Positions 27,692 to 28,852 of a stretch of 33,273 nucleotides of DNA are shown piece by piece (the first letter of the stretch is position 1; each line of letters starts with the position of its first letter). The notes under the pieces were generated by a model that saw only the letters and a list, made by a program, of their open reading frames with translations, was not told where the DNA came from and searched no databases. A program made the translations under genes and the position numbers. Source of the stretch: Omnitrophica bacterium RIFCSPHIGHO2_02_FULL_51_18 (GTDB lineage Bacteria > Omnitrophota > Gorgyraeia > 2-02-FULL-51-18); contig MHFI01000025.1 in the NCBI GenBank assembly GCA_001804125.1, forward strand, positions 1 through 33,273, written 5' to 3'.

Positions 27692-27890
27692 CTTGCCCCA
27701 AATGCCAACGGGTCCTGCCACCTTCGGAACATTATTTTCCTCAAAACTCAAGAGATCCTTAGTGAATAAAAGCGTGTGGACATGCTAGTGATTGCACGCA
27801 CTACGACTGTCAGTGGAAAAAGGTGTTTCTTTGAGGAAAATAATGTCCCTCGGTGTCACCCGTTGGCATTTGAGTAATGTCTGAGGCAAG
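27692..27890. repeat. Long imperfect inverted repeat I; candidate structured RNA or palindromic element
   Basis: cttgcc/ggcaag; aaatgccaacgggt (27700-27713) / acccgttggcattt (27858-27871); cacc/ggtg; acattattttcctcaaa (27729-27745) / tttgaggaaaataatgt (27830-27846); about 84-nt apical region with smaller hairpins. Confidence 0.85.
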
Positions 27891-27899
27891 CCCAATCCC

Positions 27900-28061
27900 T
27901 TTTCTTCGCATCGCCGCGCTTGTGGTTTCGACATAAATCATAAGGGAGACGGCTAAGAGAAAATTGTCCGAGGCGCCGTTTGGCTAAACGGCGCCGAGTT
28001 ATTTTCTATTAGCCGAGGGATCCCATGATTTATGGAGAAACCACGCGGCATAAGAAGAAAA
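27900..28061. repeat. Long imperfect inverted repeat II; candidate structured RNA or palindromic element
   Basis: Nested stems: ttttcttc/gaagaaaa, gccgc/gcggc, gtggttt/aaaccac, ataaatcat/atgatttat, ggga/tccc, ggctaagagaaaat/attttctattagcc, apical ggcgccgttt-ggct-aaacggcgcc. Confidence 0.87.
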
Positions 28062-28076
28062 CGAGACTAGTTCACG

Positions 28077-28105
28077 GTGACAGGGGTTATAACTTATGCT
28101 AGAAT
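28077..28105 (+). promoter_or_regulatory. Sigma70-type promoter for the plus-strand membrane protein
   Basis: GTGACA (28077-28082), 17 bp, TAGAAT (28100-28105); followed by aaaggag RBS and ATG 28132. Confidence 0.65.
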
Positions 28106-28131
28106 ACCGAAAATCAAAAGGAGATACTATC

Positions 28132-28758
28132 ATGTCAGAAGCCATCTCGTTAGACCCAGCCACCCTTGTGCTTTTCTCCCTGCGTTGGATTCACTTTATC
28201 TTTGGGATTGCTTGGATAGGCCATCTTTACTTCTTCAATTTCGTGAATGTGCCCTTTGTCAAAACAATGGACGCTGAAACCAAGAAGAAAGTGGTGCCCC
28301 AGCTCATGCCAAGAGCGTTGTGGTGGTTCCGTTGGTCCGCGATGATTACGTTCCTTTCGGGCGTGATCTATATCGTGGGCAAACTTCATTTGAATAACAC
28401 CGGTATCATGAACGGTCTTTTTGGGTCCACTTGGGGCCAGTGGATCAGTTTGGGTTCGCTCCTTGGGAGCATCATGTGGTTCAACGTGTGGTTCATTATT
28501 TGGCCGAACCAAAAGAAGATAATTACCTCCGTGAAGACAGGCCAAGCGCCGGCGGATCTGCAAACGATCACACGACAGGCGTTTTTGGCCTCAAGACTCA
28601 ACACTTACCTTTCGGTGCCGATGCTTTTCTGCATGGGAGCCGCGAGCCACTTGCCTTCATTCAATATTTGGATCATTCTGATCGTCGCCGTGATCAGTGT
28701 CGCGCTTGTTTGGCACTTAGTGGAAAAAGTGGCGCCTAAGGCTGGTTCTAACTTTTAG
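28132..28758 (+). CDS. Urate-oxidase-N-terminal (PuuD)-like membrane protein
   Basis: TM protein starting SLRWIHFIFGIAWIGHLYFFNFVNVPFVK..., conserved His/Trp positions (IWPNQKKII, ASHLPSFN); start ATG 28132 has a strong RBS. Confidence 0.75.
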   Translation: MSEAISLDPATLVLFSLRWIHFIFGIAWIGHLYFFNFVNVPFVKTMDAETKKKVVPQLMPRALWWFRWSAMITFLSGVIYIVGKLHLNNTGIMNGLFGSTWGQWISLGSLLGSIMWFNVWFIIWPNQKKIITSVKTGQAPADLQTITRQAFLASRLNTYLSVPMLFCMGAASHLPSFNIWIILIVAVISVALVWHLVEKVAPKAGSNF

Positions 28759-28763
28759 TTTCA

Positions 28764-28850
28764 CGTCATCCTGAGCCCGCCATGATTTAAGGCGGGCGAA
28801 GGATCTCATCTTTTGAGATTCTTCATTCACTTCGCTCATTCAGAATGACG
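28764..28850. repeat. Palindromic intergenic repeat between convergent genes
   Basis: Outer arms cgtcatcctgag...ttcagaatgacg; internal hairpins gcccgcc/ggcgggc and gaaggatctc/gagattcttc. Confidence 0.85.
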
Positions 28851-28852
28851 AG

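Follow-up and report, generated by a model that had tools for sequence, protein, structure and literature searches.

A nested hairpin between two divergent genes of an Omnitrophica bacterium is probably one copy of a dispersed mobile DNA element with exchangeable modules

The window analysed here, a stretch of 33,273 nucleotides from Omnitrophica bacterium RIFCSPHIGHO2_02_FULL_51_18, contains a large inverted repeat with a branched apex. Does this repeat encode a structured RNA, or is it a palindromic DNA element? The original prediction left both readings open. The conserved structure is real, but it is the structure of a mobile repeat family. A DNA element is favoured over a one-off structured RNA gene because copies are dispersed, sites are empty in relatives, and one 5-bp duplication is clear. 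The feature is probably a member of a dispersed family of mobile, non-autonomous DNA elements that form a nested imperfect hairpin over their whole length.

The inverted repeat was recovered with the predicted bounds, which are given exactly by the outermost CTTGCC/GGCAAG stem (Table 1). The two main helices were also found: the outer arms are complementary at 15/15 positions, and the inner arms at 19/20, with 17 bp consecutive. The inner arms enclose 84 nt, in agreement with the predicted apex of about 84 nt, and the main stems contain no G-U pairs, as had been noted. The minimum free energy of the element is -80.9 kcal/mol, versus -51.8 ± 4.2 kcal/mol for shuffled sequences (z -7; 0/200 dinucleotide shuffles as low).

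Table 1. Features of the hairpin element in the window (strand left empty where none is assigned).
Feature	Positions	Strand	Basis or remark
Nested hairpin element, whole	27692..27890		Bounds set by pairing; copies in own genome
Core GGGTCCTGCCACC...GGTGTCACCC, family orientation	27710..27861	+	Minus is the strand predicted to fold
Outermost short stem, 5' arm CTTGCC	27692..27697		Fold centroid
Outermost short stem, 3' arm GGCAAG, past a 12-nt unpaired stretch	27885..27890		Fold centroid
Outer arm, 5' side CAAATGCCAACGGGT; locus-specific outside GGGT	27699..27713		Complementarity, compensatory changes
Outer arm, 3' side ACCCGTTGGCATTTG	27858..27872		Complementarity
Conserved asymmetric loop side GGGTCCTGCCACC, CCTG unpaired	27710..27722	+	Alignment of copies
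Conserved opposite side GGTGTCACCC	27852..27861	+	Alignment of copies
Inner arm, 5' side	27726..27745		Complementarity
Inner arm, 3' side	27830..27849		Complementarity
Apex domain of long form	27746..27829		Conserved GATCC-TTAGTG-ATAAAAGCGTG and ACGCAC

The element is flanked by two divergent genes, one RNR-like (class II) on the minus strand and one for a membrane protein with a Urate_ox_N domain on the plus strand. The promoter scan recovered both predicted promoter-like sites, 27647-27619 (minus) and 28077-28105 (plus); two sites were found versus 0.9 expected, and both are consensus matches only. The window copy lies upstream of both predicted promoters; the original prediction likewise placed it in neither gene's leader. 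Gene orientation, context and promoter position gave no evidence of a function for this copy.

Several further features surround the element. The plus-strand gene (28096-28758) encodes 220 aa, and its match to the urate oxidase N-terminal membrane domain (PF06181) lies chiefly in the C-terminal part of that domain. Immediately after the element comes a second dispersed palindromic repeat, 27890-28062, with arms at 27922-27941/28025-28044 and a terminator-like hairpin at 27972-27995. The genome contains five copies of this second repeat, whose identities to the others are 93, 82, 81 and 75%, and at the C47 locus both repeats are present in the same order as in the window. After the plus-strand gene, 28764-28851 contains a repeat-like sequence, CGTCATCCTGAGC...GAAGGATCTC...GATTCTTC...CATTCAGAATGACG, which resembles CGTC-tagged palindromes.

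When the own genome (1.53 Mb, 69 contigs, 92.5% complete) was searched at the DNA level, diverged copies with 71-85% identity were found on many contigs and in both orientations. A covariance model, built from nine copies, found 13 full-length copies, and an exact pattern found four short ones, giving about 17 in total at unrelated loci. Re-oriented by the apex, the copies align cleanly as GGGTCCTGCCGCC...TTTTCCTCAA-[apex GAGATCCTTAGTGGATAAAAGCGTGGGC..GAGATTACGCAC]-TTGAGGAAAA...GGCGTCACCC. The model matched in 10/13 genomes of the family, a count that includes the own genome; the relatives carry mostly shorter forms without the long-form apex, e.g. 16 matches in G011. Among the 118 class genomes searched, the long-form apex was found in the own genome and in none of the other 117; the viral contigs searched gave 0 matches to it. 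In G086, five contigs (C2, C18, C23, C28, and C35) end at an element copy or within about 150 bp of one. The repeats therefore probably break assemblies, and copy numbers are probably underestimated. One G011 copy, L191 (C85, core ~1013-1099 after orientation), is situated close to the start of a gene for a TlpA-like lipoprotein, where it keeps the reading frame and is translated along with the gene.

The shorter relatives share the common ends GGGTCCTGCCGC...GCGTCACCC. Their pattern is present in 46/392 genomes of the host's class, with 0 matches for the reversed-pattern control. In GTDB genomes, the pattern GGGTCCTGCCGCN{50,80}GCGTCACCC matched at least 117 stretches. Among the matches listed, the majority were in Omnitrophota and Patescibacteria MAGs, the latter including Roizman-, Sacchari-, Gottesman-, Davies-, Uhr-, Kerfeld-, and Doudnabacteria; other listed MAGs were from Deltaproteobacteria, Melainabacteria, Nitrospirota, Planctomycetota, and Bacillota. 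Single MAG matches could result from misbinning. The matches in GC-rich isolates (Streptomyces, Nocardiopsis, and Peteryoungia) survive the loose fold filter; judged by their interior sequence, they look like chance.

Covariation, which had been suggested as a check, is strong in the stems. In nine long copies, 18/40 stem pairs have double changes versus 9.2 in shuffled alignments, the covariation is 0.348 versus 0.135, and paired cells amount to 93.7% versus 81.2% (0/500 shuffles in each case). When the partners are slid, the pairing falls to 40-50%. The stem changes are chiefly from one Watson-Crick pair to another. Kinship of the sequences can inflate covariation counts, but the large effect and its spread over both main helices argue against an artefact. 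Isolated in-helix mismatches on the GGGTCCTG strand of 138 de-replicated cores are 26 of A-C type versus 4 of G-U type (p = 6e-5), a count that omits a single conserved T.G position (G[T]GCTC/GCGCGC) and looks balanced with that position in. The A-C excess on this strand indicates that the complementary strand tolerates wobble, as expected if the complementary strand folds. The folding strand, ssDNA or RNA, would be the minus strand in the window.

Within the element family, whole modules have been replaced. The copies L050, L191, and L192 (G011) and L044 (G012) have cores that are 100% identical over 86 nt and outer arms that are unrelated. These unrelated arms are palindromic (GAAAAGATTCGAC/GTCGAATCTTTTC, CCTCCAGCCAC/GTGGCTGGAGG, and CCAATTTAGC/GCTAAATTGG), with 10-15 bp, and only 5 bp in L192. 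In 162 elements, an arm complementarity score of 10 or more was reached by 15%, versus 0.1% with shuffled partners. The outer pairing is short in some genomes: it covers 3-4 nt in G367, and a direct (C/T)TCG repeat takes its place in the G097 group. Long outer arms are thus not universal. The interior varies as well. The copies between trpC and trpF have common flanks, GGNGCTCG on the left and a CTTATGGTGTTAATATG-like sequence on the right, which indicates one ancestral insertion; their inner hairpins are radically different between species. In three copies (on C34 of the own genome, L288, and L306), unrelated small palindromes are inserted at one point, GGGTCC^TGCC.

Members of the family have inserted at junctions between genes, and in sister species these junctions are empty. 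Between mrdA and rodA (names assigned from the translated gene ends), G011 carries a copy; in G012, the two genes share an ATGA overlap, and neither the element nor a palindrome is present. The G011 insert is about 145 bp, and both outer arms arrived with it. It is flanked on both sides by (T)ATGA, and a 5-bp TATGA duplication is probable. Within the G097 genus, four genomes (G097, G400, G284, and G191) carry an insert between trpC and trpF; the junction is empty in most aligned congeners (...GGGTTGGTAAAA...), nine of which provide empty sites, where no palindrome is present. TGGTA...TGGT(A) flanks the insert in G097, G284, and G191, a 5-bp duplication at the best-documented site. The duplication was read at these two loci; the candidate empty sites L248 and L249 have diverged too far for their boundaries to be located. 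At mrdA-rodA and trpC-trpF alike, the junction is one of overlapping genes, so the duplication may also be selected. On the two sides of the conserved core, the insertion ends lie 8 and 21 nt away at one locus and about 25 and 36 nt away at the other, in unrelated sequence. The empty sites come from these relatives, with none known for the window copy. The family is mobile, and its hairpin is maintained.

The covariation and the wobble tolerance on one strand would also fit a family of structured non-coding RNAs, whose members (paralogous RNA genes or cis-regulatory elements) would have been copied to many places in the genome, and so would the conserved internal loops. Against this, the Rfam covariance models gave no match at the gathering threshold or in a permissive search. 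The loose likeness to 6S RNA noted in the original prediction found no covariance-model match either. The orientation of copies relative to co-directional flanking genes is unbiased (26 vs 36), and the gene contexts (17 convergent, 18 divergent, and 62 co-directional) reveal no preference and no enrichment at convergent ends. Copies at unrelated loci keep no conserved genomic position or orientation to genes, unrelated interiors occur at one orthologous site, close relatives have empty sites, and the window copy lies outside both predicted transcripts. An RNA family is therefore improbable, though individual copies may have a transcribed role. The outer arms are palindromic yet locus-specific, which might point to a mobile core inserting alone into pre-existing palindromes, such as bidirectional terminators, with the outer arms belonging to the target; some REP dimers do lie within palindromes (Di Nocera 2013, PMC3733652). 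But the empty mrdA-rodA and trpC-trpF sites have no palindrome, the mrdA-rodA arms came with the insert, and the gene contexts show no excess at convergent ends. The empty sites and gene contexts led to rejection of this terminator or target-palindrome explanation, whose chance of being correct appears minimal.

Two explanations invoke known transposition systems. The family might be a conventional MITE that arose from a DDE transposon by deletion and is moved in trans via its TIRs, in which case the palindromy would be a by-product of long TIRs. The 80-180 bp cores without an ORF or coding capacity, the inverted terminal arms, and the 5-bp duplication at trpC-trpF (probably also at mrdA-rodA) agree with this. 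But the insertion ends, 8-36 nt outside the core, carry unrelated sequence and no conserved terminal inverted repeat, and ordinary TIRs explain neither the unrelated but complementary arms on identical cores nor the covariation of the interior. No autonomous transposon with the same ends was seen next to the RAYT genes or in the phages, plasmids, and viral contigs searched. The core gave 0 matches in viral contigs and none in phages, and the only plasmid match to the element, of 42 bp, was spurious. A conventional MITE is thus rather unlikely. A REP-like element moved by a Y1 HUH transposase (RAYT/TIRYT) would be in line with the hairpin repeats, the strand-specific folding, and the Y1 genes in the own genome. 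Yet the RAYT genes of the own genome differ in their TIRs and have no element next to them, and Y1_Tnp is no commoner in the positive genomes (32/46) than overall (304/392). It is absent from the copy-rich, near-complete G030, G086, G062, and G169. The aligned copies also lack the GTAG tag, and target duplication is not expected for Y1 enzymes. Adjacency and co-occurrence led us to reject Y1/RAYT as the mobiliser; it is unlikely to be the mobilising enzyme of this family, and the REP-like reading as a whole has very little probability. The two RAYT/TIRYT-type genes of the own genome (L182 on C17 and L184 on C36) have the TIRs GGGACAGTTCACTTATTAAT and GGGGACACTATACTTAATT. In some long copies, GGGACACTAT is also the start of the inner stem, which may be coincidence or relation.

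Several points also count against the preferred reading of a mobile DNA element: its mobilising enzyme was not found, a clear duplication is seen at a single site and a probable one at another, both at junctions of overlapping genes, long outer arms are missing from some genomes, the covariation and wobble tolerance would fit RNA as well, and the window copy itself has no known empty site. In the preferred reading, the substrate would be a folded single strand, which reads GGGTGACGC...GCAGGACCC and corresponds to the minus strand of the window. A putative trans-acting enzyme would read the conserved asymmetric internal loops, CCTG opposite GTCA, which would serve as recognition and exchange points. 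The modules, namely arms and inner hairpins, would then be exchanged either through insertion or recombination at the loops or through fold-back (template-switch) synthesis. Matching arms around an identical core could arise by fold-back synthesis as well as by recombination between copies. The window copy itself would sit passively between the two divergent genes. More tentatively, the family may represent a hitherto undescribed class of mobile ssDNA hairpins with exchangeable layers across many candidate phyla, for which a dedicated non-Y1 recombinase recognises the asymmetric loops, inserts or swaps palindromic modules, and makes matching arms at each move; this is possible, but we hold it with reserve.

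Dispersed palindromes are known in cultivated bacteria, and what moves the CGTC-type and similar repeats is an open question. The present family spans several candidate phyla and has insertions with empty sites. Identical cores with unrelated palindromic arms and swapped interiors are a direct signature that makes the copying mechanism testable. The copy-rich genomes without a Y1 transposase (G030, G086, and G062) are natural starting points in the search for the enzyme. Literature searches with the exact motifs returned only unrelated papers among the matches listed, and searches of the non-subscription literature on repeats in these phyla turned up no description of the family. The family in its exact form, its spread over candidate phyla, the exchange of modules at one orthologous site, and the absence of a Y1 association are apparently new.

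Integron attC sites are imperfect hairpins with conserved ends and a variable centre, and their bottom strand is folded. The present family is likewise an imperfect hairpin with conserved ends and a variable centre, and one strand probably folds. Unlike attC sites (R'' RYYYAAC / R' GTTRRRY), it has the conserved ends GGGTCC and TCACCC, lacks AAC/GTT boxes, and is dispersed singly, not in cassette arrays. Organelle double-hairpin elements and the small dispersed repeats of Nostoc are likewise small hairpins that can lie inside one another and carry compensatory changes; compared by description, they are shorter than the present family and have other hosts. Rickettsia palindromic elements (PMC10969869) are palindromic repeats of about 100-150 bp that sometimes lie in frame in genes, as L191 does here. 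The present family is mostly intergenic, and the likeness is one of description. MITEs such as RUP, NEMIS, ERIC, and QMITE (PMC10969869) are also small, non-coding, and mobile, with inverted ends and target duplication (here at one or two sites). In contrast, the present family has no fixed TIR at the insertion boundary and no autonomous partner found, and its hairpin covaries over the whole length. Small palindromic repeats, their nesting, and complementary stem variation were already known (PMC3733652, PMC10969869). The CGTC REPs, likewise without a known transposase (Di Nocera et al. 2013, PMC3733652), have a terminal CGTC, an 8-9 bp stem, and a CCA tail; here CGTC is internal (GCGTCACCC), the CCA tail is missing, and the stems differ. 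REPs in general are 20-40 bp, with a terminal tag and a short loop (PMC3733652). The aligned copies are longer, without a terminal GTAG, the repeat was seen next to none of the RAYT genes examined, and Y1_Tnp is no commoner in genomes that carry it. The GTAG- and CGTC-tagged REPs/BIMEs share with the present family dispersed hairpin repeats and complementary stem variation, and some are nested in other palindromes (PMC3733652). The present family differs from them in its length of 80-180 bp, its several stacked stems with conserved asymmetric loops and no terminal tag, its exchangeable inner and outer modules, and its occurrence in other phyla.
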